From: Cubamyces lactineus
Taxonomy: Eukaryota > Basidiomycota > Agaricomycetes > Polyporales > Polyporaceae
Length of the DNA: 64,000 bases
Direction: 5' to 3'
Assembly (NCBI GenBank): GCA_022376465.1
Contig: JACDTU010000009.1
Location: forward strand, 682,001 to 746,000
Part shown: positions 389 through 27,044 of the stretch, in pieces
How the letters are laid out: every line of letters begins with the position of its first letter
Numbering within the stretch: position 1 is the first letter of the stretch
Made by a program: the position numbers and the translations under genes
The notes under the pieces: model-generated
What the model was told of the DNA's origin: nothing
Seen by the model: the letters and a program-made list of their open reading frames with translations, nothing else
The model's database searches: none

Positions 389-401
389 TTGTCTCCCCTA
401 G

Positions 402-435
402 GCAGACGATGAATGTGTACCACATACACGTCTGC
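402..435. other. Subterminal hairpin of transposon end (left copy)
   Basis: GCAGACG at 402-408 and CGTCTGC at 429-435 are inverted repeats around a near-palindromic core (TGTGTACCACATACA). It lies 13 bp inside the terminus. GTCTGCTT in its right arm also matches the opposite transposon end read inward. This is a possible transposase binding site. Confidence 0.5.
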
Positions 436-576
436 TTTCAAACGCGCTCACCTTACTGGAGGGTCCCACATCAGAGATGCCGAGTGATCCGATGCTACCA
501 TAAACAGCGACTGCCCGATTGAGAGGTACCCTATATGGCAACCTCTAAATAGGGTTTAGCGTAGTCTTTATTTCTC

Positions 577-602
577 CGCGCACTTTACCCCCCCCTTGGC
601 AC
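577..602 (+). promoter_or_regulatory. 26-bp C8 promoter motif upstream of helicase (left copy)
   Basis: The core TTTACCCCCCCCTTGGCAC is preceded by CGCGCAC and lies about 105 bp upstream of the helicase ATG. The same motif with one mismatch lies 62 bp upstream of the DUF6589 ATG (15,757-15,782), in the same orientation relative to its gene. Confidence 0.55.
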
Positions 603-706
603 TTCGGTAGATGCCGCTTCACGTGCTGATCTCAATGCGTCAACATGGCATAACAACGCGTCTCGATGGCGCTCGTATTGTGTGAGTCTTGCAGAGGCCG
701 ATCGTC

Positions 707-3049
707 ATGGCCTCATCTGTCAATGCCACCCCGCGAGCACGCCCACCGTTCGTGTTCAGCACAGCGGAAGGAAGAATTCTAGTGCGACGTGTTCTACAAA
801 AGAAACTCCCGTATACTCCGCATGACTATCAACTCGAGGGCGTCTGCAAACTCCTCGACGGCATGGACCTTGTCGCCGTCTTACCCACAGGAGCAGGCAA
901 AACAGGCTTTTATATGATGTATATGCTCCTCTTGCTCGAGCTTTCGCAAAACCCAACTCTCTGTGATCCCCCATACGTTCCATTGACCAGAGACCCGTGT
1001 CTTATCATGGTATATCCTACCAATGGGTTAGAAGAGGAACAGGTGAGTAATAGTGCGGCCTTTGTGACGAGCCGTCCAACTGACAACCCCTACGTAGGCG
1101 AAAACCTTCGAGAGCGCTGGGATCAAGTCCCTCGTTATCAATCGCGAGACGCTCGCGACCGCGCGGGGCAAGAAGACCAGTCTATGGGTCATTGCGCGCA
1201 CAGACATATCAATACTGCTGCTCTCGCCTGAGCAGCTTGCTTCTCCCAGGTTTGAGTCTCTCCTGCGACACCCTGCCTTCTACTCTAGGATATGCGGCCT
1301 GGGCCTCGACGAGCTACATCTACTAGACTCTTGGGGCCTTGGCTTTCGTCAGTCATACCGGCAAATGGGATATGTGCATGCGCGTCTGCCTGCCTGGGCG
1401 CGTTTTCTTGGTGGCACTGCGACCATGCTCGTTGGGGACCCCCAGGACAGAGTCTTCAACATGCTTGGTCTACGGCAGGGTAGCTTCTACCTTTTGCGGC
1501 ACTCGAACATCCGGTGGAACGTGAGGACGATATTCCGCACGTTGACACGTGGGTTAGGTGGTTGGACATTTCCCGACCTCGCATGGATCATACAGAGTAA
1601 TCGCAAGACAATCATCCACTGTCGCACAATTACTCTGAGCTTCCGTGTTACGGTCTATCTACGACAACTCCTCGGCGCTTCCACCGGTATTGCTCAGTCC
1701 CAAAAGCGCGTCCGGATGTATAATGCACTCAACTGGCCTTCATACAATGCAGAGACACGGCGGCTCATTCAGCACGATCCCGACGCCCAGATTGTTGTTG
1801 CGACGGCAGCCCTGATGGTCGGGATTGACCTCCCCAACATTGCAGATGTCATCATCCTCGGCGCACTCCAGACTGCGGATGAGCACATCCAATGGGAAGG
1901 TCGGGCGGGACGAGATCCGCGCCATATTCAAGACGCCCGATGCATCACGTATACATCAAAGAAGACTCAGCTGGCCGCACGCGCACTCTGCGAGGGCGCT
2001 ACGCCCACCGGCCATGCGGCAAAGAAGACTACCGCAATGGGCAAGAAGGCCACCTCTGCTCCGATGGATGTCAGCATGGTGCGCTTGCTGCTGGCAGACT
2101 GCGCAACAGATGAACAGAACCAGCTCTACAGGAACCCTGCTTCCAACCCCCTCTGCTCGTGTCCCCGCTGCGCGGTTCCCTCCCCTACACATAGTACAGA
2201 CGGAGGCTCTCATACTACGCCCATCTGCCAGTGCAGCGGCTGCATTACAGACGACTTGCCGCCAACTCCTCTCTACAACAAGCCCATGCTGATGAACCCG
2301 GTCCCACGGAGCAAACGCCTGACCAAGGCGATGCGTCTCGCTGGCACTCAGCGTCTCGAGAAGGTGAGGATGAGTATCTACAGGGCAGCGAAGACTCCGA
2401 CCGCACGTTCCATCACCCCCAACATCTATCTTCCCGACTCCTCAATCAAGCAGATTCTCGACCGCTTTGCGCTCCTCGACACATGTGATGCCGTGCGCGA
2501 CTTGGTCGGTGACAATACCTATCTCCTTCCCCACCTTGATCTCCTCTGGTCTGCCATGCAAGAGCTTGTCGTCCAGTTCGAGGACATTTGAAGAGCAAGT
2601 CTCAGACCATCCAACTCGGAAGTGGCGCTCGGTGAGGTGGATGGTGCGCCCGTTCGGCCGCTCGCTTTCGAGGAGTGTTGCTCGGAGTTCCAGGTACACG
2701 GCGAGCTCACGCCTTGTACACCGCATGATCTGACTTCGCAGCTGTGAGTGTCATCTTGGGTATCCGTACTGGTGATACTTACAATGATCGGTTTGACAGG
2801 ACGTCTTGGGAAGACTCACACATCGGTTGGATCCCCCGACTTGATGGAGCACTTGACGGCGCATGGGAAGCAGTCCAACGACCGGGAGGAGATTCACGGA
2901 AGCGGTCAAGCACGGTGACTGCTTTGAAGTCCGAGCCTCGTCCAACAAGGCGACGACTCATGGACAATTCAAAGGTCAGTCACTTGTTGTTCACGCGCGA
3001 GTTATATACTGATGTTTCTCTCCTTAGAATAAGGAGAACATTGACCCGG
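707..3049 (+). pseudogene. RecQ-like DEAD/DELH helicase, left copy, broken by retrotransposon
   Basis: Exons are 707-1042, 1098-2743, 2800-2974 and 3028-3049, with GT-AG introns of 53-56 nt. The frame holds through every junction. Helicase motifs are in order: Q-like YQLE (residues 41-44), Walker A TGAGKT (61-66), DELH (183-186), GGTAT (217-221), GIDLPN (about 354-359) and QWEGRAGRD (377-385). A CxCxxC pair follows (465-470 and 489-494), a likely zinc site. A TGA at 2589-2591 (codon 610) interrupts the frame, which then continues open to the end. The last exon is split after NKENIDP by the LTR element at 3,050, so this copy lacks its native last three codons. The ATG at 707 was chosen because the frame further upstream offers only a TTG. 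Likely an accessory mobility protein of the transposon. Confidence 0.8.
3045..3049. repeat. Target-site duplication of the LTR retrotransposon, left
   Basis: CCCGG precedes the LTR and is repeated at 11,970-11,974. The empty site, with a single CCCGG, is preserved in the right transposon copy near 24,386. Confidence 0.95.
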
Positions 3050-3599
3050 TGTTACGCTTTCGAGCGTGACTCTTAAACTATCAAGCCTTAAGACGTCAAT
3101 GAATAGAGAGCTTGTATCTATTCAGCTACTAGCCCTAGCTTGTCGAAGATAAGCGCGTAGTAGTATTTGCAGTTGAAAGCGAGTTAACGAGCAACCAAAG
3201 TCGTATTTCGCGAAGAGACTGAAAGCTGAGGGTCGCTCTATGGCGTCGCCTCTTATATACATGTATACCAGCCTGTAGACGGAACGTTCTAGCGTATACA
3301 AGGACTTTCTGGTGCGTAGTAGTCAGCGCTAGTCGAACCTAGTAACACTGTGGCAGTGCTGCTGTGTACTGTGCAGAAGCGCTGTGCACTGCGCGGAAGC
3401 GACTGTGCACTGTGCAGAAGTAACTGTGCATGGAAAGTCCTAGAGCATCCTAGATAATACGAGACTGTTCCATAGAATCCGCCATATACAATCGTAGCTG
3501 GAGTCCCAGAGCCTACCATACTTGTATCGTACAGAGTAAGTACTAGAAACCGTTACCAGTTCGTCGAGACGTCGCAATACCTATTGTACATTCGTAACA
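3050..3599 (-). repeat. 3' LTR of the retrotransposon
   Basis: 550 bp, identical by reading to 11,420-11,969. It contains the same TATA box (3252-3259), self-primer copy (3216-3227) and short tandem repeats (3361-3431). Confidence 0.96.
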
Positions 3600-3613
3600 T
3601 CAGCTCCCCCTCC
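3600..3613 (-). other. Polypurine tract (plus-strand primer)
   Basis: On the minus strand GGAGGGGGAGCTGA abuts the 3' LTR, the expected position for the plus-strand DNA primer. Confidence 0.85.
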
Positions 3614-3633
3614 GCTGAAGGTCGTCCTCGACC

Positions 3634-4929
3634 TTAGAGGTGAACGATAGCATTGTTTCTCTCGACGACCTCAGGACGGAAGACATCCAGGGAGATCTGG
3701 ACGAGCTCCGCATCGCTACCTACTGCTCGAATGCAGTCCCATTGAGCAGTCTCTGCTGCCGACATGCCTAAAGCCTCGCGATAAGTAGTCGCGATGCGTT
3801 CAGCGTCGACCTTGAAGGCGGGGTAATTTCCACGCCGGGCGATGACATCGTCGATGAGTAGGGAGGCGGCTTGGGTGGTCCTGACTGAAGCTTCCGGCCA
3901 TCGGAGATGGTATGCGACCATGATCCGAACGTCAGAGATGCCGAAGGAACTGTTGGGGACCATGAAAATGTCGCCTCGAGAGTTGATGTATCCGAACCGA
4001 TCTTCTCCGGTTCCACGAAAGAAACCGCATCGTCCATGGGGTTCCTCGACGTGCTTGGTGATCGTAGTCGGGGGAGGAGGAGGCGGGGAAGGGGCCCTTA
4101 CTGCGACTTTCAGGGCTTCGTGGAACTCCTCTTCCGAGAGCTCGTCGATCGTGCTAAGCTCTAGTTGTTCGAGCTCAGGGAGTAAATCGAAAGACTCGAC
4201 TTCCGAATAGGAGGAGTCAGAACTTGAGGAGGATAGGGTCGGGGTCGACCCCTCAACTGAAGTCGGACCCCATTTGATGGCTTCCTCCTCAGGATCAGGA
4301 GTGGAAACCTTCCAAGGGTCAGTCGAGGGAATGGACCATCCACCATCCGAGCGTACCTCGTCCTCGTCTTCTTCCTCATCCGAAGAATCGACCTCGATAG
4401 CTTGCGGGTAGTCATCGAGGCGTTGCGGCCAAAAGACATGCCCCCAACTATGCGTACCGTGTTGGTTACGCAGGGGCATCAGGTCCGAGAGTGCTCCCGC
4501 GACCTGAGGGTTAGCGAGCATAGAAATTACTTTCTCTGCCGCTTGAACCACTGCCTGATAGGCCTCGCTCGCAACTTGAACTACCTTCTTCTTCTCGGAC
4601 TTGGGCGCCGACGTTCTCTGGTTGTGTTTGATGAGAACAGAGTAAGAGGGGGCGGCCCTGGCGAGAGCGCGGTAGACGTCGATGAGGTCCTTGACCTCAG
4701 GAAGATGGGCAATACGGGCCTCGACATGGCTGTAGAGGTCGGGGTGCACGATGACCCAGCCGACACGATCGGCGAGGGTGCCCTCGTCGTTGCACGAGAC
4801 GGTGTGTCGGGGAAGATGGTTGTAGAAAACAGTGCGCCGTGCCCTAATGAAGTTGGGGGGACGGGGAATGTTGCGACGAGTCGCCTCAGAGAAACGACGA
4901 CCAGTAAGACGAGTGTTGGTGTAGACCAT
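3634..4929 (-). CDS. Third ORF of the LTR retrotransposon, unknown protein (431 aa)
   Basis: It has a proper ATG and starts 67 bp after the pol stop. No family recognised. The N-terminal third is basic and mixed. The middle is acidic and Ser-rich (SSDEEEDEDE and several Ser runs), followed by a Pro run near residues 290-297. A compact-looking C-terminal part follows (GRCGFFRGTGEDRFGYINSR, then a helical stretch). I see no signal peptide or membrane segment, so an envelope role is not supported. Its position after integrase would need a spliced or subgenomic message, or reinitiation. It could be a captured host gene or an element-specific regulator. The frame is intact over 1.3 kb inside a young element. 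Confidence 0.75.
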   Translation of the reverse strand: MVYTNTRLTGRRFSEATRRNIPRPPNFIRARRTVFYNHLPRHTVSCNDEGTLADRVGWVIVHPDLYSHVEARIAHLPEVKDLIDVYRALARAAPSYSVLIKHNQRTSAPKSEKKKVVQVASEAYQAVVQAAEKVISMLANPQVAGALSDLMPLRNQHGTHSWGHVFWPQRLDDYPQAIEVDSSDEEEDEDEVRSDGGWSIPSTDPWKVSTPDPEEEAIKWGPTSVEGSTPTLSSSSSDSSYSEVESFDLLPELEQLELSTIDELSEEEFHEALKVAVRAPSPPPPPPTTITKHVEEPHGRCGFFRGTGEDRFGYINSRGDIFMVPNSSFGISDVRIMVAYHLRWPEASVRTTQAASLLIDDVIARRGNYPAFKVDAERIATTYREALGMSAAETAQWDCIRAVGSDAELVQISLDVFRPEVVERNNAIVHL

Positions 4930-4996
4930 AGTGAATAGAGGAGAAATTTGTTCAGAAAATTCGAAGAGATATTGGGTGAGGAGTGGGTTGAGTCCT

Positions 4997-7900
4997 TCAC
5001 GACAACTTGTGCCTCTTCTTATAGTTGCGCAAGATCGACTGCGCGTTCTTGAGATGTCTTTCTGGTTCCCAAGAATTTTCCGATGCGGGCCAGCCCTTCC
5101 AAGCCACTAGATACTGCTTTTGGGTACCTCTAGTGCGGTGGCTCAGAATTGCTTCTACCTCCCATTCCTCTCCTTCAGTTGATTCAGGAGTGGGAATCGG
5201 TGGAGGTCGGACATAGTCTGGTCCGTGCTCCTTAGTTGTGTGGTACGGGGTAAGTAGCGCTACGTGGAAGACGGGGTGTATCTTCCATTTCTCCGGAAGC
5301 TTTAACTTAAATGTAACCGGTCCCAAGACCTTGACGATGGTGAACGGTCCCACTCGTTTTGGAATCAACTTCCTGGAGACATATGGAAGCCTGAGGTTCT
5401 TTGTATCGAGAAGAACCTTGTCTCCGAGCTTCAGCGGAACTTGCGCAGCGGGGAGCCTTCTTGACATAGCTGCGGCGGCCTGCGCATGCGCCGCTATTGT
5501 ATTCTCCCTGGCTTCCTGAAGACTTTGAAGCCTCTGCTCCGTACTTGGATGCTTTGGGGTGGTTCGGACTGTCCCAACGGCCTCTGGCTGAAACCCGTAG
5601 AGTAGCTCAAACGGGGATTTTCCCGTGACAGAGTGTGTCCGCTGATTGTGCGCGAATTCGAATTGAGGCAGCAGTTTGGCCCAGTTCTCCGGATTGTTAG
5701 CACAGTAGAGCCGAAGTGCTAAGTCGAGTTCTTGATTTACTCGCTCCGTTTCCCCATCTGTCTGAGGATGGTAGGCCGTGCTGAGTGCCGTTTCAATTCC
5801 GAGGCTATTGTGTAGTTCTTTGAATGCCTTGGATATGAATTGCGGCCCCCGATCCGAGATGACCTTCGCAGGTAGTCCGAATCTGCGATACACATCCCTT
5901 TGCAGAATATCCATGGCTCCTTCTGCCGTAATATTCTTGGTGCAAGGGGAAAATACCGCTGCTTTGGATACATCATGGTCGACTACCACTTGGACGGCAT
6001 TAAAACCATCCGATTCTGGTAGATCGGTGATATAATCCATGGTAATTGTCCGGAAAGGCCTAGTATCCCCACTGTGTTGAATGGGAATTAAGCCTGGTTT
6101 AATGGGATGCGTATTGACCTTGCTTGTTTGGCAAGCGGCGCAACCTTTGACATATTGCGCGATGAATTTCCGCATGCCTGGCCACATATATTCCCGTTTA
6201 ACCAGATCATAGGTTTTCTGGACTCCTGGGTGTCCCATAATCGGTGCGTCGTGATGCATCTTGACTATATCACGATACAATTGATTATCTGGTGGAACGT
6301 ATACTCTGTTCTTGTACAGGAGTATTCCGTCGTCGTCGGACCAATCTTCTGGTTTGCCGAACTCTGGGCGTTTGGTAGCCTTTCCTTTTAGAGTAATGTA
6401 CTCTACTACCGAGTTGTCCCGTAGCTTGCTATCACGGATGCGCTCTTGTAGCTCAACGTTGACAGCTTTGGCAAAAAGTTCTGGCCCTAGTAATACGACG
6501 TCCTTGTTGTCATTTTCCCCCCCGTCATGCCCTGATCTCCGAGAAAGGGCGTCTGCTTGAGTGAGGGATTTTCCGGGCTGGTGCTTGATTACGATGTTGA
6601 ACTCCGAGAGGAATAAATGCCATCGCGCCTGTCTGCGATTTAACTTCTGCGCCGTACGGAAGTAGGTCAGATTTTTGTGATCTGATAGGATTTCTGTAGG
6701 GTGTGGGGAACCCTGCAAAAAATGTCGCCATGCTTCGAGAGCTCGAACAATGGCTAACAATTCTCTATCATAAATCTGATAGTTCCGTTCCGCAGGAGTA
6801 AAGGACTTGGACAAATAGGCACAAGGATGCCATAGTCCGTCCTCTCCTTGCTGTCGTAGTACAGCACCTGTTGCGACCTTAGAAGCATCGCACTCAATCT
6901 GAAATGGTTTCTCCGGATCCGGGATTTGTAGGATCGGTTCTTCAGTAAACCGCTTCTTGAGTGTATTGAATGCTTTCTGACAATCAGAGGTCCACAGAAA
7001 AGGCTGGTCCTTCTTGGTTAATTCCGTGAGGGGTCGGACTATCTTTGAATAATCCCGAATGAACCGTCGGTAGAAATTACCGAACCCTAGGAATGCCTGA
7101 ACCTGCTTGACTGTTTTCGGTGGTTCCCACTCGATAATTGCCTTGAGCTTTACTGGATCCATAGCGACTACCCCTGGCCGGATTATTGATCCTAGAAATT
7201 CGACTTCTTGTCTGTCGAATTCGCATTTTTCCGCCTTGAGGAATAGATCACTGTCTTGAAGTCGCTGTAAAGCTCTTCGCGTGCGTTTGTGATGGTCCTC
7301 GACATTGTCTGAGAATATCAGGATGTCGTCCATGTAAATGACCATCCATCCTTCCTGAAGCATGTCCCGGAAGAGATCGTTCATCATGTTCTGGAATGTG
7401 GCCGGTGCGTTGCACAAACCAAAAAACATGACTGTCGGTTCGAACAATCCGCTGGGTGTTATAAACGCAGCTTTCCACTCATCACCCTCTTTGATGCGAA
7501 CATTATTGTACCCTGCTCGCACGTCGAGCTTGGTGAATATTGTGGCCCCTTTCAGCCGGTCAATGATGTCGCTGATGAGCGGCAAGGGATATGCGTTTTT
7601 GATAGTCCCCTCGTTAAGAGCCCTGTAGTCTTGAACAGGTCGAAGACTCCCATCCTTCTTGGTGACAAAGAAAAATGGCGAGGCTAGTGGAGACTTGGAT
7701 TTTCGAATGTAGCCCTTCTCGAGGTTCTCCGCAATGAATTTGTCGAGTTCTATACGTTCCGTATAGGTCAGAGGGTAGATTTTCCTCCAAGACCCCTTGG
7801 TATGATGGTCGAAGTCCTTCTTGAATTCGATAGCATGGTCCCATGGTCTCGAGGGCGGAAATCTACTTGCTGCCTTTTTCTCAAAGACCTGTCGATAGTC

Positions 7901-8656
7901 CTTTACAAAATCAGGTAGGATTTCGTCCAAGGTCTTCTCCTTCTGGTCTTTCTTCGCTGCTATAGCGATCTCCGTAGACTTATTAATCTTTCGGATTTTC
8001 TTCTTGCGGTACCATAGCTCAATGGCCCTCGAAGGATTAAATGTAAGCCTTTCGGAGTCTGGGTCTGCGTCGTCCTCGTCCGGTATAGCACGTACGAACG
8101 ATACGACCAGATCTTGATTTAGAGGTTTTAGTGGGAAATTCCACAGCATCCCTTCGGGTGGGTCGTGCTCGCATTGGTATTTATGGATCTGCTGCTGCTT
8201 CTTGATAATATCCGACTTGAAAGTAATGCGTCCACTTTCCCAGTCGATATTAGGATTGTACTTGCGGATCCATGGCATGCCGAATAAGACATCGTCCCGC
8301 CCAATGTCGGCCACATACCAATTTGTTGGGAGCTTCTTCCCGTGTAGATTAAATGTCCCCTCCACCCGATGGGTAATGGTTCCCATGCTATTAACGCTAT
8401 CGTCCGCGTTCCGGAAAGTCAGAGTCTTCGGTAGTCTGACTGTCGGAAGATTGTACTTGTCCACAATCTTTTTATTGACGATCACGGCATCCGCACCAGT
8501 GTCGATGAGCCCCTTGATTTCGACGGCTTTGTCCTGAACCTGCATGTAACCGGGTATCAGCAGAGCACTGCGTCTCCGCTCTGTATTGGTTACAATAGTT
8601 ACATGCAGTTCCTTGGGCAAGTCAGGCGTCGAGTCTGCTTGCCTGCCTAAAAACCC
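4997..8656 (-). CDS. pol: Pol polyprotein: protease, reverse transcriptase, RNase H, integrase, chromodomain
   Basis: The frame is entered by a -1 shift at 8650-8656; no suitable ATG lies at its beginning. About 1,220 codons. Order: aspartic protease with LIDTGADAVIVN; RT with the YMDD core (VIYMDDILIF); RNase H with ECDASKVATGAVL and YDRELLAI; integrase zinc region with H...H and CAACQ; catalytic core with TMDYI, ISDRGPQF and GETERVNQ supplying D, D and E; then a GPF module (KRVGPFTIVK). The C-terminus is a chromodomain (WEVEAILSHR, YLVAWKGW, ENSWEPERHL), which directs integration to particular chromatin in this lineage. No stops or frameshifts are seen, so the enzyme looks functional. It encodes the replication and integration machinery of the element. 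Confidence 0.95.
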   Translation of the reverse strand, partial: GFLGRQADSTPDLPKELHVTIVTNTERRRSALLIPGYMQVQDKAVEIKGLIDTGADAVIVNKKIVDKYNLPTVRLPKTLTFRNADDSVNSMGTITHRVEGTFNLHGKKLPTNWYVADIGRDDVLFGMPWIRKYNPNIDWESGRITFKSDIIKKQQQIHKYQCEHDPPEGMLWNFPLKPLNQDLVVSFVRAIPDEDDADPDSERLTFNPSRAIELWYRKKKIRKINKSTEIAIAAKKDQKEKTLDEILPDFVKDYRQVFEKKAASRFPPSRPWDHAIEFKKDFDHHTKGSWRKIYPLTYTERIELDKFIAENLEKGYIRKSKSPLASPFFFVTKKDGSLRPVQDYRALNEGTIKNAYPLPLISDIIDRLKGATIFTKLDVRAGYNNVRIKEGDEWKAAFITPSGLFEPTVMFFGLCNAPATFQNMMNDLFRDMLQEGWMVIYMDDILIFSDNVEDHHKRTRRALQRLQDSDLFLKAEKCEFDRQEVEFLGSIIRPGVVAMDPVKLKAIIEWEPPKTVKQVQAFLGFGNFYRRFIRDYSKIVRPLTELTKKDQPFLWTSDCQKAFNTLKKRFTEEPILQIPDPEKPFQIECDASKVATGAVLRQQGEDGLWHPCAYLSKSFTPAERNYQIYDRELLAIVRALEAWRHFLQGSPHPTEILSDHKNLTYFRTAQKLNRRQARWHLFLSEFNIVIKHQPGKSLTQADALSRRSGHDGGENDNKDVVLLGPELFAKAVNVELQERIRDSKLRDNSVVEYITLKGKATKRPEFGKPEDWSDDDGILLYKNRVYVPPDNQLYRDIVKMHHDAPIMGHPGVQKTYDLVKREYMWPGMRKFIAQYVKGCAACQTSKVNTHPIKPGLIPIQHSGDTRPFRTITMDYITDLPESDGFNAVQVVVDHDVSKAAVFSPCTKNITAEGAMDILQRDVYRRFGLPAKVISDRGPQFISKAFKELHNSLGIETALSTAYHPQTDGETERVNQELDLALRLYCANNPENWAKLLPQFEFAHNQRTHSVTGKSPFELLYGFQPEAVGTVRTTPKHPSTEQRLQSLQEARENTIAAHAQAAAAMSRRLPAAQVPLKLGDKVLLDTKNLRLPYVSRKLIPKRVGPFTIVKVLGPVTFKLKLPEKWKIHPVFHVALLTPYHTTKEHGPDYVRPPPIPTPESTEGEEWEVEAILSHRTRGTQKQYLVAWKGWPASENSWEPERHLKNAQSILRNYKKRHKLS

Positions 8657-10521
8657 GTCTCAAAATCTGTAGCCCTGAGTGCGTTAATAGAAATATTGTC
8701 CTCTTCGTCCTCTTCGTCCTCTTCGTCTGAGATCTCCTCAGACTCGTCCTCTAAGTCCTCGTCGGTAACCTGTCGTACCTTCCGACTGACGGGTTTGCCG
8801 GGCTTCTTAGGTTTAGAAGGACAGTCTCTGGAAATATGTCCCGGCTTCCTGCACCGGAAACATAGTCCCTTGTCTTGCAGCTCCTGTCTCTCCTTGACAG
8901 AGAGCTTGTTAATATCGAGCGAGTCGTCCTCGATATTAACCGTCTTGACATTCTTCCTAGTCTTCGAGGTTTTGGCCTTGCGTCCTCTGCGATTAGCCAA
9001 AATCTTCTCCGTAAGGTGATAGCTATGGTCGATCTCCTTAGTCCTAGTCATCCACTCTTCAATGGTCGTCGGCGGAGGGTACGACATGGATATCTTCTTA
9101 AGTAAATATTCTGGAAGCGCATTCCTGTACAGGGCCAGTTGCGCTGCTGGGTCCAGAATTTTTCCCTTGAGAGCTAGATCCATGAACCTCGCATTGAACT
9201 CATCAACTGAAGAGTAGTCCTTGAGCTGTATTGTCGTGAGATTAACCATAGAGTCATCCACCTCGTCTACTGGGGCAAATGCGAGCAGGAAATTTCTCTT
9301 GAAGACCGGCCAAGAGTCAAATCCTCGATAGACTCCCGGTCTAATTTCCTCTTCAGCTCGCTGAATTGTGATGTCCTTCCAGTAGTTTATATTGTCCCCT
9401 TCCATGAAGGATAGGGCCGTCGCCACCTTCGTGTAATCATTAACGAAGTCGTGGGGTCGCGCCGTGAACAACAGGAACAGTTGATTGAGGAAGGACCTGG
9501 TTTTGTCTCGGTCTCCGTTGAAGACCTCAGGGTCCTTGATCTTGCCCTTTCCGTGTCCTTGCGGCGCATTTCCTGGAACTTCTTGCGGTTCCGGGTCTGG
9601 GTCTGGTCCTGGTGGTCCTCCTCCTGGGGAGTAGGGATCTGAAGGCTCAGGGTCAGGCCGACCTCCGGGCCTACCTGGTCCGCCTCCTCCTCCACCTCCA
9701 GAAGGATTGATAACTCCTCCAGAAATTGCCGTTGCCCGAGGGGCTGGTCCACTTGATAAAGACCCGTATCTTTCTCCTTCTGAGCCTTGCCCTTGCGGAG
9801 TGAACGCATATCTATGGGCTCCAGAAATGGACTCTCCTGTCGCTGTTCCCGACATGTACGATGGTACTGATTTTCGTACAAATTCTGGGGTTGCGCTGCG
9901 ACCAGTATACTCCAATTCAGATTTAGTCTCCTCGACCTCTGTCTGAATATGCTCTTCTCTCGGTTCAGGTGTTTCTGCCTCGACCCGAGTGTCTTCTGTT
10001 TTCGGTGCAGGTACTACGACCTTAATCCGAATAGTTTCTTCGATTTTCGGTTCAGGTGCTTCGACCGTCGTCCGAAAAGTCTCGTCCTCCTTGTCCGAGT
10101 CCTCTACCTTAGGCGGTTCGGTCTCCTTTCCTTTCTCCTTGAAGGATGGACCTGATTCCTTAGGTGATTCGGATTCTTGAGGTTTTGGGGTTCCTACTCT
10201 TGAAGTCGGAAACGATCCTGACACAACTCTCGGACTATTAATCCGACCAGTAGCTTTTCCAGCAAGTAGTGGCTTCTTGACTAACGCGGGTTGTCGTCCG
10301 TGGGTGTTAGTAATATCCCGCTCTTGTGAAGAGTGTGTTAGGATTAAAGCCGATGCGTGCTTGACGTTTGGAACCTCCTTAGTGTTGTACCGAAGTGGAC
10401 ACCTTTCGTTGGTGCAAAAATTCCACTTGTCTACGCTTTCTCGATAGTATACGTCCCGAGCTTTGTCGGAGTTGTAGAGATGATATAACCTTGAACAACT
10501 ATATGGTTCAGCTGAACTCAT
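8647..10521 (-). CDS. gag: Gag structural protein with CCHC zinc knuckle (624 aa)
   Basis: The ATG at 10,521 is the first AUG of the predicted transcript. The N-terminal half is low-complexity (Pro/Glu/Thr-rich, then a Gly run near residue 290). A Retrotrans_gag-like core follows from about residue 345 (FNGDRDKTRSFLNQL onward). The zinc knuckle CFRCRKPGHISRDC lies near residue 567, for genomic RNA binding. The C-terminus is acidic. The stop codon TAG lies directly after the slippery heptamer. The start overlaps the stop of the preceding frame as ATGA. Gag forms the virus-like particle in which reverse transcription occurs. Confidence 0.93.
   Translation of the reverse strand: MSSAEPYSCSRLYHLYNSDKARDVYYRESVDKWNFCTNERCPLRYNTKEVPNVKHASALILTHSSQERDITNTHGRQPALVKKPLLAGKATGRINSPRVVSGSFPTSRVGTPKPQESESPKESGPSFKEKGKETEPPKVEDSDKEDETFRTTVEAPEPKIEETIRIKVVVPAPKTEDTRVEAETPEPREEHIQTEVEETKSELEYTGRSATPEFVRKSVPSYMSGTATGESISGAHRYAFTPQGQGSEGERYGSLSSGPAPRATAISGGVINPSGGGGGGGPGRPGGRPDPEPSDPYSPGGGPPGPDPDPEPQEVPGNAPQGHGKGKIKDPEVFNGDRDKTRSFLNQLFLLFTARPHDFVNDYTKVATALSFMEGDNINYWKDITIQRAEEEIRPGVYRGFDSWPVFKRNFLLAFAPVDEVDDSMVNLTTIQLKDYSSVDEFNARFMDLALKGKILDPAAQLALYRNALPEYLLKKISMSYPPPTTIEEWMTRTKEIDHSYHLTEKILANRRGRKAKTSKTRKNVKTVNIEDDSLDINKLSVKERQELQDKGLCFRCRKPGHISRDCPSKPKKPGKPVSRKVRQVTDEDLEDESEEISDEEDEEDEEDNISINALRATDFETGF
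8650..8656 (-). promoter_or_regulatory. -1 ribosomal frameshift heptamer GGGTTTT at gag/pol junction
   Basis: In the gag frame the codons are ACG GGT TTT TAG. The heptamer G GGT TTT fits X XXY YYZ, and a one-base backward slip reads GGG TTT TTA GGC straight into the pol frame. The gag stop follows immediately. A downstream pseudoknot was not modelled. Confidence 0.8.
10518..10521 (-). promoter_or_regulatory. ATGA stop/start overlap between the AUG-less frame and gag
   Basis: ATG of gag (10,521-10,519) and TGA of the upstream frame (10,520-10,518) overlap. This arrangement is typical of termination-reinitiation coupling. Confidence 0.7.
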
Positions 10522-11414
10522 ACACGTTGTGCTTGTCGTAGGAAAGCCTGATGTAGTTCCCTAGCTCGGAGGCAACTACAAAATTTCCTAAGATTTTCTT
10601 CGAGGTCTATATCTGCGTAGTTCTCCGGATTGAGGACCTTTGCTCGCAGGTAGTCAATCTGGTTCTGAAGATATCCCGCAAAGTTCCGTACCCTCGTTGG
10701 AGGCGTAACAGCTTGTCTTGGAATAAATTCGAGTGTCTGGATGACCTGAGTTATGTATCGATGGGCTCGTTCGAGAGTCGCGTGATATCTCCTCGTGAAG
10801 TCTTCCTGTCCTAGTACTTCCAAGTTATCTGCTATAACTCGAAGTGTATCGATCGCGTGCACCGGAAGCTGTGTTCTCCGATAGAATATCCCTGCCGTTG
10901 AGGATGCTTCTTCAACACTAGTTTCTGGAGTCGATCGATCCGAACTATCCGTTCCTGGACTCGCTCGGGTTGGAATGGGTACGCCTATTGCTACTCCTGA
11001 TTCCGCCTGAATGGCCAGAGAATTCCTATATTCTCTCCACTCGTCTGTTCTCTGAAACGCGGGTTCTTGTTCCGATACTCGAGTGCTCCGACCCGACGAT
11101 GTCGAACTGGTACTTTCTACGTAAGGGATTGTCGAGCTAAAACCTCTTATCAAGGGGAATGGGGATCCTCCTGGCGATCTTGGGAGAGCAACTATATTCT
11201 CCGGGATCGCGAGTGGTGGTAAGCTCGGCAGTGTTTTGTTCCTTCCGCCTAGTACCCTGGGTGATTGTCGCAATGGGGGTTGTGTAGTTCCCTCCGTATT
11301 GACTATCGTCTCTCTGTACGTTACGAGCAAGAGAGAGTTCTGATGCGTTTCGTAGTCGTTGTCTTCCGACGTAGGCCTCTGCACTTTTAACAAGTGGAGG
11401 GTTAAAGCTTTCAG
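10518..11414 (-). CDS. AUG-less upstream frame (ORF0) of the retrotransposon, about 298 codons
   Basis: The open frame runs from a TAG inside the 5' LTR to the TGA overlapping gag. It contains no ATG codon. The encoded sequence looks like real protein: a Ser/Thr/Pro-rich first half, then a helical part with QLPVHAIDTLRVIADNLEVL, TQVIQTLEFIPRQ and YLQNQIDYLRAKVLNPENYA. A CTG at 11,414-11,412 with A at -3 (within the primer-binding site) is a possible near-cognate start; a TTG at 11,393 is another. No homology recognised; it may be a Gag N-terminal extension or separate capsid-associated protein. It could alternatively be a structured leader that is open by selection for lack of AUGs. The start chosen here is an inference. 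Confidence 0.55.
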   Translation of the reverse strand: MKALTLHLLKVQRPTSEDNDYETHQNSLLLVTYRETIVNTEGTTQPPLRQSPRVLGGRNKTLPSLPPLAIPENIVALPRSPGGSPFPLIRGFSSTIPYVESTSSTSSGRSTRVSEQEPAFQRTDEWREYRNSLAIQAESGVAIGVPIPTRASPGTDSSDRSTPETSVEEASSTAGIFYRRTQLPVHAIDTLRVIADNLEVLGQEDFTRRYHATLERAHRYITQVIQTLEFIPRQAVTPPTRVRNFAGYLQNQIDYLRAKVLNPENYADIDLEENLRKFCSCLRARELHQAFLRQAQRV

Positions 11415-11417
11415 TCT
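11406..11417 (-). other. Primer-binding site, complementary to the LTR (self-priming)
   Basis: Two bases after the 5' LTR, the minus strand reads AGACTGAAAGCT. It is an exact complement of AGCTTTCAGTCT inside the LTR at 11,597-11,586. It does not begin with TGG, the usual start of tRNA-primed sites. Confidence 0.75.
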
Positions 11418-11585
11418 AATGTTACGCTTTCGAGCGTGACTCTTAAACTATCAAGCCTTAAGACGTCAATGAATAGAGAGCTTGTATCTATTCAGCTACT
11501 AGCCCTAGCTTGTCGAAGATAAGCGCGTAGTAGTATTTGCAGTTGAAAGCGAGTTAACGAGCAACCAAAGTCGTATTTCGCGAAG

Positions 11586-11597
11586 AGACTGAAAGCT
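11586..11597 (-). other. Predicted transcript 5' end / self-primer
   Basis: AGCTTTCAGTCT starts 32 nt downstream of the first T of the TATA box, where transcription would be expected to begin. It would therefore be the first 12 nt of the RNA and can pair with the primer-binding site. Confidence 0.65.
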
Positions 11598-11621
11598 GAG
11601 GGTCGCTCTATGGCGTCGCCT

Positions 11622-11629
11622 CTTATATA
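11622..11629 (-). promoter_or_regulatory. TATA box of the 5' LTR
   Basis: The minus strand reads TATATAAG, followed at a canonical distance by the predicted RNA start at 11,597. Confidence 0.75.
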
Positions 11630-15695: not shown

Positions 15696-15756
15696 GCTGA
15701 CTGCTCGAATTCTCTCATTGGCTCGTGATCAGATAAGCGCCAAAGCCTGGAGCTAT

Positions 15757-15782: not shown

Positions 15783-16064
15783 TAAAGGTGCAGACCGTTA
15801 TAAGAGAACGATCGATTGTCATCGGACTCTATTACGGTTAGCAACGGAGACTAGGTTTAGCGCCATTCCGGTTCTGCTGCAACCGCTCGATGCTGAGATG
15901 CTGAGAGCTCTGCAGCCTCTGCGCTCCTGCCACTACTATATGCTACTGAGCGTCCACCTCTAGGATTTCGCTATGCCTTTCGATGGGCCAATGAAGCCTC
16001 TGCAGTGGACTTGTCCTCTCTCAGGACTGCCTGAACCACGCCCGTTGCAACTTAACATCGAGAC

Positions 16065-16517
16065 GTGTGGGCTCTACCGACGCAGGACTTGTACTTCCGA
16101 AGCAAGGATGAACCCTACCTGTCTGCGACCACCATCAGCTCTCCGTCCCCCACTGCCAGCTGGCCCTCCTTTACGTCGCCAACCCTCACACCATGCTCGC
16201 CTGTTCAATCATTCGCGCCGAGTACTGTCCTCAATCAGACAATCCTCGCGACGGGTCACTCTGCAGAAACTAATCCATATAGCTATCCCATGACGCCGTT
16301 ACATCCCCGACGTCTCTCTACTGTGTTGAACATCCACCATCATTCCCCGTTACCCTTAGTTCCCTCCGTGTACACCCAGGCTCCACCACTGCGCCCTTGT
16401 AAACGCAAACACGATGAAAGCGATCCGATGCCGTACTCCACGCCACCGCCCCCGTCCCGACCACGCAAATATCACACCTCTCAGGATAAACTAAGTATTG
16501 TACTTGCTTTCCTTTAG
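16065..16517 (+). pseudogene. Truncated 5' end of a second DUF6589-type gene (left copy)
   Basis: A 150-codon frame, Ser/Thr/Pro-rich, ends in RPRKYHTSQDKLSIVLAF and a stop. Its end resembles RLNRSQKLTKILDEL in the full DUF6589 gene of the same element, just before the conserved domain starts. The frame stops at the junction with a truncated helicase start on the other strand. It is divergent from the full DUF6589 gene and shares its upstream region (15,696-15,972). I infer a deletion remnant; a small lineage-specific protein is possible. Confidence 0.5.
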
Positions 16518-16630
16518 TCATGAGGGGGGTAGCCTAGTTCATCAAGGATAATCCGGCGGCATAAGGCTTGCTCATCGGAAGAGCTAAATGTATAGTAGGC
16601 TCTCTGACCTGGCTGAGAAGTGTTGTCCAT
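16514..16630 (-). pseudogene. Truncated 5' end of a second helicase gene (left copy)
   Basis: The fragment begins MDNTSQPG and reads FSSSDEQALCRRIILDELGY then PPHD before a stop. It aligns with the start of the full helicase (FVFSTAEGRILVRRVLQKKL then PYTPHD), including the initial Met. It ends exactly where the conserved YQLEG motif should begin. So only about 38 codons of a related helicase remain, tail-to-tail with the truncated DUF6589 start. Confidence 0.6.
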
Positions 16631-16821
16631 TAGAGGGGCATAGTATAATGTAGCAGACAATGTAGCTGAGTAGTATGAATTTGAAGTTCTCCAGTACATC
16701 GACGCGACGTGAAATAAGCGCCGGTGTATAGATCTTGACGCGTCGTCGGAGATCAACTTGCGGCTGACAAATTCGAAAACCAGAGGCTCGTACTACAGGG
16801 CGGCAAATGCAAGCAGACTAG

Positions 16822-16829
16822 CATTGACC
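16822..16829. repeat. Target-site duplication, left transposon, inner copy
   Basis: CATTGACC, equal to 381-388. Confidence 0.9.
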
Positions 16830-19528: not shown

Positions 19529-19536
19529 ACAAGGAC
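19529..19536. repeat. Target-site duplication, right transposon, inner copy
   Basis: ACAAGGAC, repeated at 27,045-27,052. The next C (19,537 and 27,053) also matches, allowing 9 bp. Confidence 0.9.
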
Positions 19537-19727
19537 CTAGTCTGCTTGCATTTGCCGCCCTGTAGTACGAGCCTCTGGTTTTCGAATTTGTCAGCCGCAA
19601 GTTGATCTCCGACGACGCGTCAAGATCTATACACCGGCGCTTATTTCACGTCGCGTCGATGTACTGGAGAACTTCAAATTCATACTACTCAGCTACATTG
19701 TCTGCTACATTATACTATGCCCCTCTA

Positions 19728-20662: not shown

Positions 20663-23600
20663 ATGATTATGTCTCATGCTGTCATTCATATGAGTCATGG
20701 ATGCCAGAGGGCGAGGACGAGCCTGGTGAAGTACGAAGTTCTTACTGCTCAGAGCCCCTTCAGCTCAGTGAAAGCAATGCGCGACCTGAGGCCTCAGACA
20801 CCGTCAACAAGCAAGGTGCCATCGCCTCGCTATCTTGATTCGCCTTTTGTCACGCCGAGTCCATTCAGTCGGAGTACAGCATACGAAGAGAGTATATTCA
20901 CGCAGAGACATCAGAGTCCAAGCCTACACTGTAAGAGCTGGACCCGTCTTTCGGGTTGCCTGGCAGATGTAATAATCATTGTAAACCTCAGTCGCTACGG
21001 AAGAGTCAGAAGATTGTTTGCCCAGCGGAATTCTGTCAGACACAGTCATAGATCAAAGTCCCCGCAAAGAGTCACCCAGGCACGCTCAGTACCCAGGCCC
21101 AGCAGTATGTAGTACGTATACAAATCATAACCAAAACAGTTGGAACGATGCCCTTATACTGTATTAGCTCCTGCCAAGGCTAACCCAGCTATCACGCCGT
21201 CGGCATCTGTCAAAAAGGCTCGGTTGAACCGCAGTCAGAAACTTACAAAGATACTTGACGAGCTCAAGGCGATCAACTGGACCGTCGCCGACTTCCTGTA
21301 TCAGCTCTTTTGACTGGAGGATGAGCGAGGTAACCCTGTCCATCGTGACCTTCGACATGGCACAATTGTGGGAACCTTCCTCGCCGGTCAGATGCGGCAC
21401 ACAGTCGCTGAGATCATGTCAGCATGGCTACATGACGAGGCAGGGCGTCCAAAGCGTACACATGCTGAGCATGGGAAGATGTACTCACTAGAACAGTGCT
21501 GGGAAGATGCTCGTCATGCACGGGTAGCTCTGACCTCGATGTCAATGCAGCTGTGTCAGAAGCGGCTTCGCGTCGAGCAGAGAAGGGCAGTAAAGGGCGC
21601 GTGTGGGCTGCATGGTAGTGCGCTGGCTCAGCATGGACATCGGGAGCCATCCTGGGATGACATTGGTCAGGACACGGTTACAAATGTCAACAGAATCCTC
21701 ACCAAATATCAGCCACTCGCATTGAAGCTTCTCACGGAACTGGCGACACCGGTGGTGAAGAAGAATGATGATACAGGCACTGTGGTGGCCCGGAAGTCAC
21801 GCCCACCAGGAGTGGTCAGTCCGATGCTCATAACGAAAGGGAAGAATCCTCACATATCTGACTAGGTGGCGACCGAGGTCCTCAGTACGCTCAACTTCTC
21901 ACGGACGCGGTTTGCAAGGCTTCTTCCAACAGCCCGCTCAGTCATGTACTTCGCATGTGGCATCCCGCGCAGCCTGTTTGACTATGGTAGCCAGGTCGGT
22001 CAGACGTTGAGCTGGAGTGCTACGTACCGAATGCTTCAAAGACTTGCCGCTCAGGAGAGAAAGGTGATTGCGGAGCTGGGGTGGGACCGGGATCGATGGC
22101 CGATCATGCGCATTGACAACGTTCAGCAATACCACAAGCAGCGCGACCGCAGGATGGGACGTGAGAATGTCATGGAGATCGGCGTGGCAGGGACGGTTGC
22201 GGAGGCTCTCGAGTTTGAGCCATCGGCAGCAGATCTGGATGACCGACGGCAGAGAATTGCGCAGAACCCCCGGAAGGGGCTCACTGTCAACAAGCTGGTG
22301 GAGCTCGTAGACTGGGACTACTCGGAGTCTTGCTTTGTTCTCCAATGGGTCCAAGTCTTGGTGCGCTACGTGCCTGCGCTTGCGGGCTATCGGACACAAG
22401 TCGCAGATCTGTATCGGACGGACAACTTGAAGATGTCCTCTCCTGCATCACACACGAAGACGCCAATACATGCGTTAGGAACCGTCGCTAAGAACGAAGC
22501 AATCATGACTGACCTACGGGATACGCTCGTGGACTTTCTGGGACAGCTAGGGCAGACTGACACCTCGCACATGCCACGCCTGCTCCCGGTCGGCGGTGAC
22601 GGCCTTACCTTCGAGAAGCTGGTCCAGATCAAGAATCAGCTGCAGTTTCAAGACAACGACTTTCGCCGCTTCGACATTGTCATGCCTTTCTTGGAAACGT
22701 GGCACACGCAATGGACATACCTCAGCATGATCTTCGAGGTCCACTTCGGGAAGCGCTTCACCACCGATCCATCTGCGCTTGGCCACAGTGCTGCCAAGAT
22801 CGATCAGAAGGAACCCTCAAACCTGAAGAAGGTCGACTACTACCCTGCGTGCTATCTTGCATACATTGTTCTAGATGCGCGCCTTCTAGACTGCTGGCGG
22901 TATGTATACTACATCAGACCAGGCTTGGGGTTTAGGTTTAGGTTCTCACCTTTGCGATTCTGTAGAATCCACTACAACACGGACGATCTGTTTCAGTTCT
23001 TTGATAAACTCGCTGCAGAGGAGAAGTTACCGACCCTTGATGAGCTCCGAGACGCTGCGAAGGTTTTGCATGCGCGCTATTCATGCCAACGTGCCTGGTA
23101 CAATGCTATGGAGGGTGAAGAGGCTGCCACAGAGGCGGGGTGGACAATGGGCACTGCCTGGACGTCTGAGCCAAGCTCTGTTACAGCAAAGTCAACAGCT
23201 ACCACGAATGGAGGAGAGAGTACATTCACCGGAGATCGAAGCCTCGCGCAGTCCATCTTGTTCATCATGGACACGATGCTGTCCCGAGACGCCGCGGAGG
23301 CAGTAGCAGTAGGAGATGTCGGCCGGCTGTGGAATGACCTCAAGGTTAGTCATGTATGCCTTTGTTAGAAGGATGTAAAGAGCTCACCAAAAAGAGCTAG
23401 ATCATGATGTTCAAGTTTGAGGGTTCAAGCCATACCAAGTACGGTGGTTACATGCTTGAACAGACTTGTAGCCTTGAACTCGAGGCAAGCGAGTCACTTC
23501 GCCGCACCTTCCTGAAGAACTGGCTAGTCAATCCTACAGGACGTCCCGGCAAAACGCTGGAGGGCGATCTGTTTGAAGAGCACATCAACGAACAGCTCGA

Positions 23601-24336
23601 GGACGCTATCACTCGGAAAGATGCCGATTGGGACAACCCGTTCCTTCGCGAAGTCATCTCCCCGAATGTCTACCACTTCATTGAGCTTAAAGATGTCTGG
23701 GGCGCAGGCGTCGGACTTGCCAGACGTCGAGGACACCACCCTGACCCTCACAGCCGACCAGAGATCAGGAAGTTACTCGAAACGTACCGGTCAGAGCAGT
23801 TGCATGTCTTCCGCAGTGGACGCTCCTACGAGGACTCCGTGGAGGCCGTGAATACCTTCGCCAAAGGTGTAAGAGAGCTGCAGAAGAAGAAGCTGAAAAG
23901 ATTTATACTGGAGAGCACACGGGCTCAAGCACGTACCACTCGGCCGGCGTCCAATCCGCAACATGAGGGTTGCACTTCAGAAGGACAGCCACTTACGAAC
24001 AACGTAGACGTGGGCCGGGACCATGCCGCTGCTGACTCAGAAGAGGAAAGTGAGCGTAGCAACCACAGCGATGAAGAACTCGACGACGACGTGGAGCCAG
24101 TTGAAGATGACTTGAGCGGGGATCCTATAGAGTTGACGGGAGGGAGCATGCAGCTCGTCGACGGCGAGCTTGTTGTCGGCTACTACGAGTATGTCAGTGG
24201 TCAGGACGGCATGGATGGGGATGCAGAAGGGTTCCACGAGCACTCGGAAGACGAAGATATACTAGACGAGGGCGATGACAACGGAGGGCAGGATGCGGAC
24301 TCGGAAGTATCAGATTATGAGGATGAGGATATGTGA
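20663..24336 (+). CDS. DUF6589 protein, candidate transposase, right copy
   Basis: Exons 20,663-21,104, 21,168-21,814, 21,866-22,899, 22,966-23,344 and 23,401-24,336. Phases fit to the end (1,146 codons including the stop). The in-frame TGA is at 21,311-21,313, between FLYQLF and LEDERGNPVH; flanking codons look conserved on both sides, so a CGA-to-TGA change is likely. Domain blocks: RIDNVQ, GGDGLTFEKL, WHTQWTYL, DPSALGHSAAK and HTKYGGYMLEQTC, then an acidic tail. It is probably a nuclear DNA-binding or nuclease protein acting on the transposon ends. DUF6589 is widespread in basidiomycetes, and I know of no assigned function. The third intron contains a telomere-like GGGGTTTAGGTTTAGGTT (22,927-22,944). 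Confidence 0.87.
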
Positions 24337-24372
24337 CTATTGTAGCGACATATGAGGTAACTGCCATCTTGC

Positions 24373-26726
24373 TCAAACACCCGCCGGGTCAATGTTCTCC
24401 TTATTCTAAGGAGAGAAACATCAGTATATAACTCGCGCGTGAACAACAAGTGACTGACCTTTGAATTGTCCATGAGTCGTCGCCTTGTTGGACGAGGCTC
24501 GGACTTCAAAGCAGTCACCGTGCTTGACCGCTTCCGTGAATCTCCTCCCGGTCGTTGGACTGCTTCCCATGCGCCGTCAAGTGCTCCATCAAGTCGGGGG
24601 ATCCAACCGATGTGTGAGTCTTCCCAAGACGTCCTGTCAAACCGATCATTGTAAGTATCACCAGTACGGATACCCAAGATGACACTCACAGCTGCGAAGT
24701 CAGATCATGCGGTGTACAAGGCGTGAGCTCGCCGTGTACCTGGAACTCCGAGCAACACTCCTCGAAAGCGAGCGGCCGAACGGGCGCACCATCCACCTCA
24801 CCGAGCGCCACTTCCGAGTTGGATGGTCTGAGACTTGCTCTTCAAATGTCCTCGAACTGGACGACAAGCTCTTGCATGGCAGACCAGAGGAGATCAAGGT
24901 GGGGAAGGAGATAGGTATTGTCACCGACCAAGTCGCGCACGGCATCACATGTGTCGAGGAGCGCAAAGCGGTCGAGAATCTGCTTGATTGAGGAGTCGGG
25001 AAGATAGATGTTGGGGGTGATGGAACGTGCGGTCGGAGTCTTCGCTGCCCTGTAGATACTCATCCTCACCTTCTCGAGACGCTGAGTGCCAGCGAGACGC
25101 ATCGCCTTGGTCAGGCGTTTGCTCCGTGGGACCGGGTTCATCAGCATGGGCTTGTTGTAGAGAGGAGTTGGCGGCAAGTCGTCTGTAATGCAGCCGCTGC
25201 ACTGGCAGATGGGCGTAGTATGAGAGCCTCCGTCTGTACTATGTGTAGGGGAGGGAACCGCGCAGCGGGGACACGAGCAGAGGGGGTTGGAAGCAGGGTT
25301 CCTGTAGAGCTGGTTCTGTTCATCTGTTGCGCAGTCTGCCAGCAGCAAGCGCACCATGCTGACATCCATCGGAGCAGAGGTGGCCTTCTTGCCCATTGCG
25401 GTAGTCTTCTTTGCCGCATGGCCGGTGGGCGTAGCGCCCTCGCAGAGTGCGCGTGCGGCCAGCTGAGTCTTCTTTGATGTATACGTGATGCATCGGGCGT
25501 CTTGAATATGGCGCGGATCTCGTCCCGCCCGACCTTCCCATTGGATGTGCTCATCCGCAGTCTGGAGTGCGCCGAGGATGATGACATCTGCAATGTTGGG
25601 GAGGTCAATCCCGACCATCAGGGCTGCCGTCGCAACAACAATCTGGGCGTCGGGATCGTGCTGAATGAGCCGCCGTGTCTCTGCATTGTATGAAGGCCAG
25701 TTGAGTGCATTATACATCCGGACGCGCTTTTGGGACTGAGCAATACCGGTGGAAGCGCCGAGGAGTTGTCGTAGATAGACCGTAACACGGAAGCTCAGAG
25801 TAATTGTGCGACAGTGGATGATTGTCTTGCGATTACTCTGTATGATCCATGCGAGGTCGGGAAATGTCCAACCACCTAACCCACGTGTCAACGTGCGGAA
25901 TATCGTCCTCACGTTCCACCGGATGTTCGAGTGCCGCAAAAGGTAGAAGCTACCCTGCCGTAGACCAAGCATGTTGAAGACTCTGTCCTGGGGGTCCCCA
26001 ACGAGCATGGTCGCAGTGCCACCAAGAAAACGCGCCCAGGCAGGCAGACGCGCATGCACATATCCCATTTGCCGGTATGACTGACGAAAGCCAAGGCCCC
26101 AAGAGTCTAGTAGATGTAGCTCGTCGAGGCCCAGGCCGCATATCCTAGAGTAGAAGGCAGGGTGTCGCAGGAGAGACTCAAACCTGGGAGAAGCAAGCTG
26201 CTCAGGCGAGAGCAGCAGTATTGATATGTCTGTGCGCGCAATGACCCATAGACTGGTCTTCTTGCCCCGCGCGGTCGCGAGCGTCTCGCGATTGATAACG
26301 AGGGACTTGATCCCAGCGCTCTCGAAGGTTTTCGCCTACGTAGGGGTTGTCAGTTGGACGGCTCGTCACAAAGGCCGCACTATTACTCACCTGTTCCTCT
26401 TCTAACCCATTGGTAGGATATACCATGATAAGACACGGGTCTCTGGTCAATGGAACGTATGGGGGATCACAGAGAGTTGGGTTTTGCGAAAGCTCGAGCA
26501 AGAGGAGCATATACATCATATAAAAGCCTGTTTTGCCTGCTCCTGTGGGTAAGACGGCGACAAGGTCCATGCCGTCGAGGAGTTTGCAGACGCCCTCGAG
26601 TTGATAGTCATGCGGAGTATACGGGAGTTTCTTTTGTAGAACACGTCGCACTAGAATTCTTCCTTCCGCTGTGCTGAACACGAACGGTGGGCGTGCTCGC
26701 GGGGTGGCATTGACAGATGAGGCCAT
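24373..26726 (-). CDS. RecQ-like DEAD/DELH helicase, right copy
   Basis: Exons 26,726-26,391, 26,335-24,690, 24,633-24,459 and 24,405-24,373. With the TGA at 24,844-24,842 (codon 610) passed over, the frame continues to NKENIDPAGV and a TGA, 729 codons in all. The first 609 codons contain all helicase motifs and the CxCxxC pair; the part after the TGA holds about 120 codons of unknown function. If the TGA terminates translation, a 609-residue helicase still results. It is an ATP-dependent 3'-5' DNA helicase by family, perhaps unwinding ends during excision or replication. It converges on the DUF6589 gene and probably shares its promoter motif. Confidence 0.87.
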
Positions 26727-26830
26727 GACGATCGGCCTCTGCAAGACTCACACAATACGAGCGCCATCGAGACGCGTTGTTATGCCATGTTGACGCATTG
26801 AGATCAGCACGTGAAGCGGCATCTACCGAA

Positions 26831-26856
26831 GTGCCAAGGGGGGGGTAAAGTGCGCG
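26831..26856 (-). promoter_or_regulatory. 26-bp C8 promoter motif upstream of helicase (right copy)
   Basis: Mirror of 577-602, about 105 bp before the helicase ATG. Confidence 0.55.
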
Positions 26857-26997
26857 GAGAAATAAAGACTACGCTAAACCCTATTTAGAGGTTGCCATAT
26901 AGGGTACCTCTCAATCGGGCAGTCGCTGTTTATGGTAGCATCGGATCACTCGGCATCTCTGATGTGGGACCCTCCAGTAAGGTGAGCGCGTTTGAAA

Positions 26998-27031
26998 GCA
27001 GACGTGTATGTGGTACACATTCATCGTCTGC
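26998..27031. other. Subterminal hairpin of transposon end (right copy)
   Basis: Mirror of 402-435. Confidence 0.5.
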
Positions 27032-27044
27032 CTAGGGGAGACAA

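Follow-up and report, generated by a model that had tools for sequence, protein, structure and literature searches.

Helicase-encoding DNA transposons of the AcademH lineage have been described from animals and fungi (Kojima 2020, cited in PMC10045372), and the account in the 2023 paper PMC10045372 connects their target duplications of 9 or 10 bp with the helicase. In a passage of PMC10799480, AcademH is reported at low copy number from Basidiomycota, Ascomycota and Mucoromycota. Target duplications of 8 bp are described for Zisupton and a Dileera, and of 7 bp for Kyakuja (PMC12730594). Besides, single transposon ends standing alone in a fungal genome are known as Styx solo-TIRs, and where these are described the three new solo-TIRs analysed derived from a triplication of the full element (PMC10853768). 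The transposon of the wood-rotting fungus Cubamyces lactineus characterized here shares with AcademH, as described, a helicase gene, the length of its target duplications and the occurrence in Basidiomycota, and it differs from AcademH in left-end stubs, which the descriptions cited above do not mention. It is probably an AcademH member, a likeness drawn from the published descriptions.

Self-comparison of the window (the whole stretch of 64,000 nucleotides analysed, part of contig C43 of the 36.3-Mb genome) showed that one unit is present twice, in opposite orientations (Table 1); the two copies were letter-for-letter identical once an LTR retrotransposon inside copy 1 was excluded. The flanks of the two copies were unrelated and each copy had its own duplication; the independent insertions and the recent activity proposed in the original prediction were both borne out. 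That the copies reflect a segmental duplication or an assembly artefact with no transposition could be imagined from their distance of 2.7 kb and their 100% identity, but it is extremely improbable given these flanks and duplications and the presence of more related insertions on other contigs. The element is a real, recently active and functional-looking DNA transposon. In the 9-bp register the unit comprised 7,507 bp with the ends TTGTCTCC...GCAGACTA. Instead of having almost no terminal inverted repeat, as had been proposed, it showed a short and imperfect one (6/8; TTGTCTCC / TAGTCTGC), which was clearer in two sister families. The LTRs of the retrotransposon (3050-3599 and 11420-11969, 550 bp each) were 100% identical and the insert was flanked by a 5-bp duplication (CCCGG); since it sits inside copy 1 with identical LTRs, it arrived after the transposon, and recently. 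A reading frame for an aldo/keto reductase, perhaps incomplete, was found between the copies (17755-18279; PF00248, E 7e-31).

Table 1. Features of the two transposon copies, by position in the window.
Feature	Position	Strand	Basis or remark
Transposon copy 1, interrupted by LTR retrotransposon	389..16820 (or 16821)	+	9-bp register; identical to copy 2 outside the insert
Transposon copy 2, uninterrupted, 7,507 bp	19538 (or 19537)..27044	-	Copy comparison
Target duplication of copy 1, left, GCATTGACC	380..388		Flank comparison
Target duplication of copy 1, right, GCATTGACC	16821..16829		Flank comparison
Target duplication of copy 2, next to the element's left end, GGTCCTTGT when read along the element	27045..27053		Flank comparison
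Target duplication of copy 2, element-right side	19529..19537		Flank comparison
Copy 1 right end, inward reading TA-GTCTGCTT	16811..16820	-	Sequence
Gypsy-type LTR retrotransposon inside copy 1, outside the unit proper	3050..11969	-	Self-comparison
RecQ-like SF2 helicase gene, copy 1	707..2591	+	Motifs TGAGKT, DELH, QWEGRAGR; profile matches
Helicase gene, copy 2	24842..26726	-	Identity of copies
Putative DUF6589 transposase gene, copy 1, several exons (public model P0001)	12022..14966	-	Profile match, public model
Putative DUF6589 transposase gene, copy 2	21392..24336	+	Copy identity, public model
Left-end 41 bp recurring alone as stubs elsewhere	389..429	+	Genome matches, duplications
Internal octamer GTCTGCTT right after the stub border, equal to the right-end octamer	430..437	+	Sequence
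Predicted left subterminal hairpin GCAGACG...CGTCTGC	402..435	+	Single-stranded DNA folding

Both copies in the window fit a duplication of 8 bp as well as one of 9 bp (GCATTGACC and GGTCCTTGT in the 9-bp version), and the base after GCAGACTA, a G in these copies and in copies C13 and C40b, can be read as part of the element. In copy C40a this base is an A that matches the left flank and is therefore part of the duplication, which settles the length at 9 bp; the 8-bp register was ruled out by this copy and by the sister families. Four copies of this family (family 1) with both ends were found outside the window: C13 (1,330 bp; duplication GGCAGCGGC), C40a (1,216 bp; AATCTCGAT), C40b (1,330 bp; GGGAAGATG, which fits 9 bp but also 11 bp owing to a chance TA at the end of its flank) and C11 (11-bp duplication), and the long copies C10 and C12:321064 were without a right end. 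In all, the duplication was 9 bp long in eight of the nine both-ended elements (two on C43, two on C40, and those on C13, C14 and C12 together with a nested one on C11); one of the eight also fits 11 bp, and the ninth has 11 bp. Thus, of the originally predicted two 7,508-bp copies with 8-bp duplications, the two identical, opposite copies stood, and the lengths were shown to be 7,507 bp and 9 bp.

Among 18 duplications, from which the 11-bp one of the C11 copy and that of stub L056 were excluded, position 1 was a purine in 16 and position 9 a pyrimidine in 13 (binomial 0.0007 and 0.048, for positions picked after inspection), and the target bases were similar in stubs and long copies. In five long derivatives (L045, L049, L050, L081 and L084 on C13, C40, C40, C11 and C10, respectively) the first 173 bp were 98-99% identical to the unit and the interiors 86-97%, which suggests a mosaic left end or strong constraint.

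The pair of full genes originally read from the unit, a helicase and a DUF6589 protein, was confirmed. The helicase comprises 609 aa in our own gene model (exons 707-1042 and 1098-2591). It matched the Helicase_C profile above its cut-off (E 2.7e-7) and the DEAD profile just below the cut-off of 26 (E 1.2e-5, 25.6 bits), and the sole PDB sequence match of exon 2 was RecQ4 (5lst, E 6e-4). Close relatives of the helicase exist in fungi, and related helicase genes recur next to DUF6589 genes in other fungi. Among the matches listed, at least 15 DUF6589 matches had a counterpart in a related helicase whose contig has the same length, and the locus tags were consecutive in five of the six such pairs with a tag given for both genes. 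This count set 50 of the 51 close helicase matches (P0074 excluded) against 67 DUF6589 matches; the helicase relatives were taken from the best 120 of 1456 matches, and P0119-P0187, being general RecQ, were left out. The helicase would act as an accessory, either by opening the ends or by unwinding an intermediate.

The DUF6589 protein comprises 923 aa in the public model P0001 (C8Q73DRAFT_828246, Cubamyces lactineus). A possible extra N-terminal exon (SQKLTKILDELKAINWTVADFLYQLF) was seen in frame upstream of this model at about 21110-21391 of the window, and the public model may be too short at its start. The predicted fold of the protein (pLDDT 82.4, pTM 0.78) resembles that of Hermes, and ranks 1-31 in VIA-align were taken by Hermes, the P element, Tn5, ISCth4 and RAG1. 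Matches in a Foldseek search with the model were below significance, and a DUF6589 sequence profile gave no match in the PDB at E <= 1. In an alignment of 39 of the 67 DUF6589 matches, selected mainly for coverage, D225 (RIDN), on the first strand of the predicted fold, was conserved in 39/39 sequences, D386 (GGDG), just past strand 381-385, in 38/39, and D668 and E672 in 39/39 each. Counting back without gaps from the ends of the aligned ranges, Hermes E572, RAG1 E962 and P-element E531 mapped to model residues 673, 672 and 674, and Tn5 E326 mapped to 668. All 39 sequences matched DUF6589 alone in Pfam at E 0.01. With regard to hAT, neither the transposase nor the dimerisation profile was thus among these matches, and the predicted fold is like that of Hermes.

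The assignment of DUF6589 as the transposase, with an RNase H-like DDE architecture, is strongly supported by prediction, as are D225, D386 and, probably, E672 as its catalytic residues; a helical part is predicted to follow the fifth core strand and to precede the last catalytic helix. The structure prediction thus agrees with the RNase H-like core proposed at the outset, and the two Asp residues named there (in RIDNVQ and GGDGLT) are the conserved D225 and D386 of the model. The transposase would cleave the ends and join them to the target with a 9-bp stagger, at a weakly preferred R.......Y site. DUF6589 is listed in Pfam as a family of unknown function; a testable function as a DDE transposase is now proposed for it, and it is tied to a class of helicase-bearing transposons. 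A search for DUF6589 in viral contigs gave 88 pattern matches, none of which was confirmed.

In this genome PF20231 matched 20 times, spread over 10 loci, including sister families of the transposon. An element of 7,532 bp on C12 (2416821-2424352), singled out among 128 shared 9-mers on the strength of its terminal repeat (12/14; runner-up 8), has the ends TAGGCTCGTCCCCA / TAGACTCGTTCCCA and a 9-bp duplication, TGGCACGAT, and encodes a divergent pair of helicase and DUF6589 protein. The same gene pair was found in an element on C14 that has GTAGGGGAG on both sides. Besides, a 32.7-kb insert nested in a family-1 copy (C11:477700-510409) has GCTCGTACT (9 bp) on either side and the ends TAGACTCGTACCC...GGGGACGAGCCTA and carries a DUF6589 gene; its length far exceeds the 7.5 kb of the C12 element, and other insertions may therefore lie within it. 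With the helicase frames of the sister families alone as queries, a helicase was found at most 3 kb upstream of DUF6589 on C39, and none within 2.9-3.1 kb of the gene on C1 and C8 or, for the nested gene on C11, within about 1.3 kb. Strong subterminal hairpins were predicted for the three sister ends that were folded (C14 left, C12 left and C12 right; z -4.4 to -5.7). In a search for stubs of the sister families, the family-2 left-end pattern matched just two elements. A common end pattern had eight exact places, of which six belong to three element pairs and the other two are single ends that lack a convincing duplication (7/9 in the better one). Matches of the common pattern with one mismatch, 3 of 17 of which were inspected, were discarded as noise (16 and 9 places in all, against 31 and 40 in the reversed control).

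The best explanation of the whole, to which we give a probability of about 0.78, is an autonomous DDE-type transposon of the AcademH kind with DUF6589 as its transposase, the helicase as an accessory and, more tentatively, left-end stubs made by the transposase. Compared with AcademH descriptions, the elements showed a duplication within the range of 9 or 10 bp (9 bp in eight of nine), and a helicase (Helicase_C above and DEAD just under the cut-off, RecQ4 match, fungal relatives). A predicted fold with conserved D225, D386 and E672 points to a DDD/E transposase, but the Foldseek matches of the model were not significant. An RNase H core that has a helical part ahead of the last catalytic helix, as predicted here, is shared with hAT (Hermes) and P-element transposases, to which DUF6589 shows 7-9% identity in the aligned parts. 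The hAT target duplication is 8 bp, against 9 bp here, and we know of no helicase carried by hAT or P-element transposons. Helitrons are likewise fungal DNA transposons with a helicase and a terminal hairpin, but they are not known to make a target duplication, in contrast to the 9-bp duplications and the predicted DDE fold found here. Zisupton, Dileera and Kyakuja are also fungal; they differ in their described duplications of 7-8 bp, and the proteins studied here had no Pfam match but DUF6589. The view that the element is unlike any known superfamily, taken in the original prediction, is unsupported, because AcademH as described has a helicase and 9 or 10 bp duplications in fungi. An undescribed DDE superfamily that combines DUF6589 with a RecQ-like helicase, and whose helicase and duplication length resemble AcademH by convergence, would suit the lack of any Pfam family besides DUF6589 at E 0.01 and a literature search in which no paper named DUF6589, PF20231 or IPR046496 in the sense of a transposase (the string PF20231 occurred in four papers, unrelated by title); it is nevertheless unlikely, since the helicase, the 9-bp duplications and the fungal host all match the AcademH description. 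Most likely the element belongs to AcademH; what is new is the functional reading of DUF6589, and the putative stub by-product is unusual.

These stubs, the part most worth specialist attention, are many short insertions of the left tip alone, often of exactly 41 bp, and they did not enter the original prediction because they lie outside the window. With the first 512 bp of the unit as query, 26 places were found in the genome, many of which spanned just about the first 41 bp. A left-tip 24-mer with up to three mismatches was found at 33 places (reversed control, 0), corresponding to two full copies, six long derivatives and 25 stubs, in which the partial left ends L086 and L087 are not counted. 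A right-tip 23-mer was found at six places (control, 0), all in copies that also have a left tip, so that 0/6 right tips stand alone. The similarity ended at position 40-43 in 15 of the 25 stubs and at 30-36 in some. At the 41|42 border, which was chosen after looking at the stub alignments, seven stubs showed a perfect 9-bp duplication (L046, L047, L048, L051, L058, L059 and L067) and two a duplication with one mismatch (L040 and L060); the chance of a 9-bp duplication with at most one base off at that border is about 1e-4 per stub. For L048 and L051, a 40-bp stub with a 10-bp duplication is another possible reading. In addition, a perfect duplication flanked a stub of 36 bp (L039), and one with a single mismatch flanked a stub of 51 bp (L056). 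No duplication by these criteria was seen at the remaining 14 stubs, many of them diverged; at two of these, L080 (border at 41) and L065 (border at 36), there were at most two mismatches. Single ends standing alone are shared with the Styx solo-TIRs as described, which differ from the often fixed 41 bp with a clean 9-bp duplication found here. Among the papers listed in literature searches (15 of 801 and 25 of 61), none reported such stubs in its title or abstract opening.

We infer that the stubs are either a by-product made by the transposase or a mobile unit of 41 bp. The right-end octamer GTCTGCTT occurs at positions 42-49 of the unit, and the left end therefore holds an internal end-like motif. 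Our leading, though tentative, explanation is that the transposase inserts a 41-bp single end, with no partner end and with a regular 9-bp duplication, through a cut at this motif. One side of the stub would be the true left end and the other a cut just before the internal GTCTGCTT; the border of the stub lies 2 nt into the end-like stretch, as would fit a transposase cut in which the second strand is cleaved 2 nt further inward. Copies that begin near position 40, which would be the reciprocal product, were absent from the 26 matches of the 512-bp query. A less probable but serious rival is a self-standing 41-bp MITE moved in trans, with copies breeding copies. It is serious because some stubs share variants that are absent from the tips of long copies, namely A21G with a C41G end in L056, L080 and L087 and G13T in L057, L060, L078 and L079, and the fixed length and the precise duplications at 7 to 9 sites would also be expected of such a unit. 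However, the right border of the stubs (...ACATACAC) is unlike either transposon end (4/8 positions by our own count), other stub lengths occur (36, about 31 and 51), and 41 bp is very short for the pairing of two transposase-bound ends.

More doubtful still are repair scars, in which repair of the gap after excision would have taken about 41 bp of left-end sequence from a template, come to a halt at the hairpin and ended in rejoining. Folded as single-stranded DNA, the left end gives a predicted hairpin (z -4.8 for the first 47 nt, -3.8 for the first 60 nt) and the right end of family 1 gives none (z +1.9); left stubs alone were found, and stubs with similarity ending at 30-36 exist. Interrupted repair accounts for this asymmetry between left and right, but not for the precise junctions: end joining should give ragged ones, whereas seven stubs have the 41-bp stretch with a perfect 9-bp duplication, and the border is predicted to lie within the stem and not at its edge. 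The idea that stubs end at hairpin landmarks was dropped, as position 41 falls within the stem of the predicted fold. If insertion of a 41-bp single end is what occurred, the stubs would rank with the shortest insertions known for DNA transposons, and they would preserve in readable form the one-ended or pseudo-end reactions of a DDE transposon linked to a helicase. As a natural record of the reaction at one end, they could tell a double-stranded from a single-stranded intermediate.

Two partial left ends without a tip on different contigs, L086 (C12:531881) and L087 (C23:683944), both read ACTTCAARCC from position 42. A stub of about 25-28 bp, L054 (C7:806656), showed a 10-bp flank repeat, ACGTAGTAGT, whose left copy lies 7 bp away from the tip.
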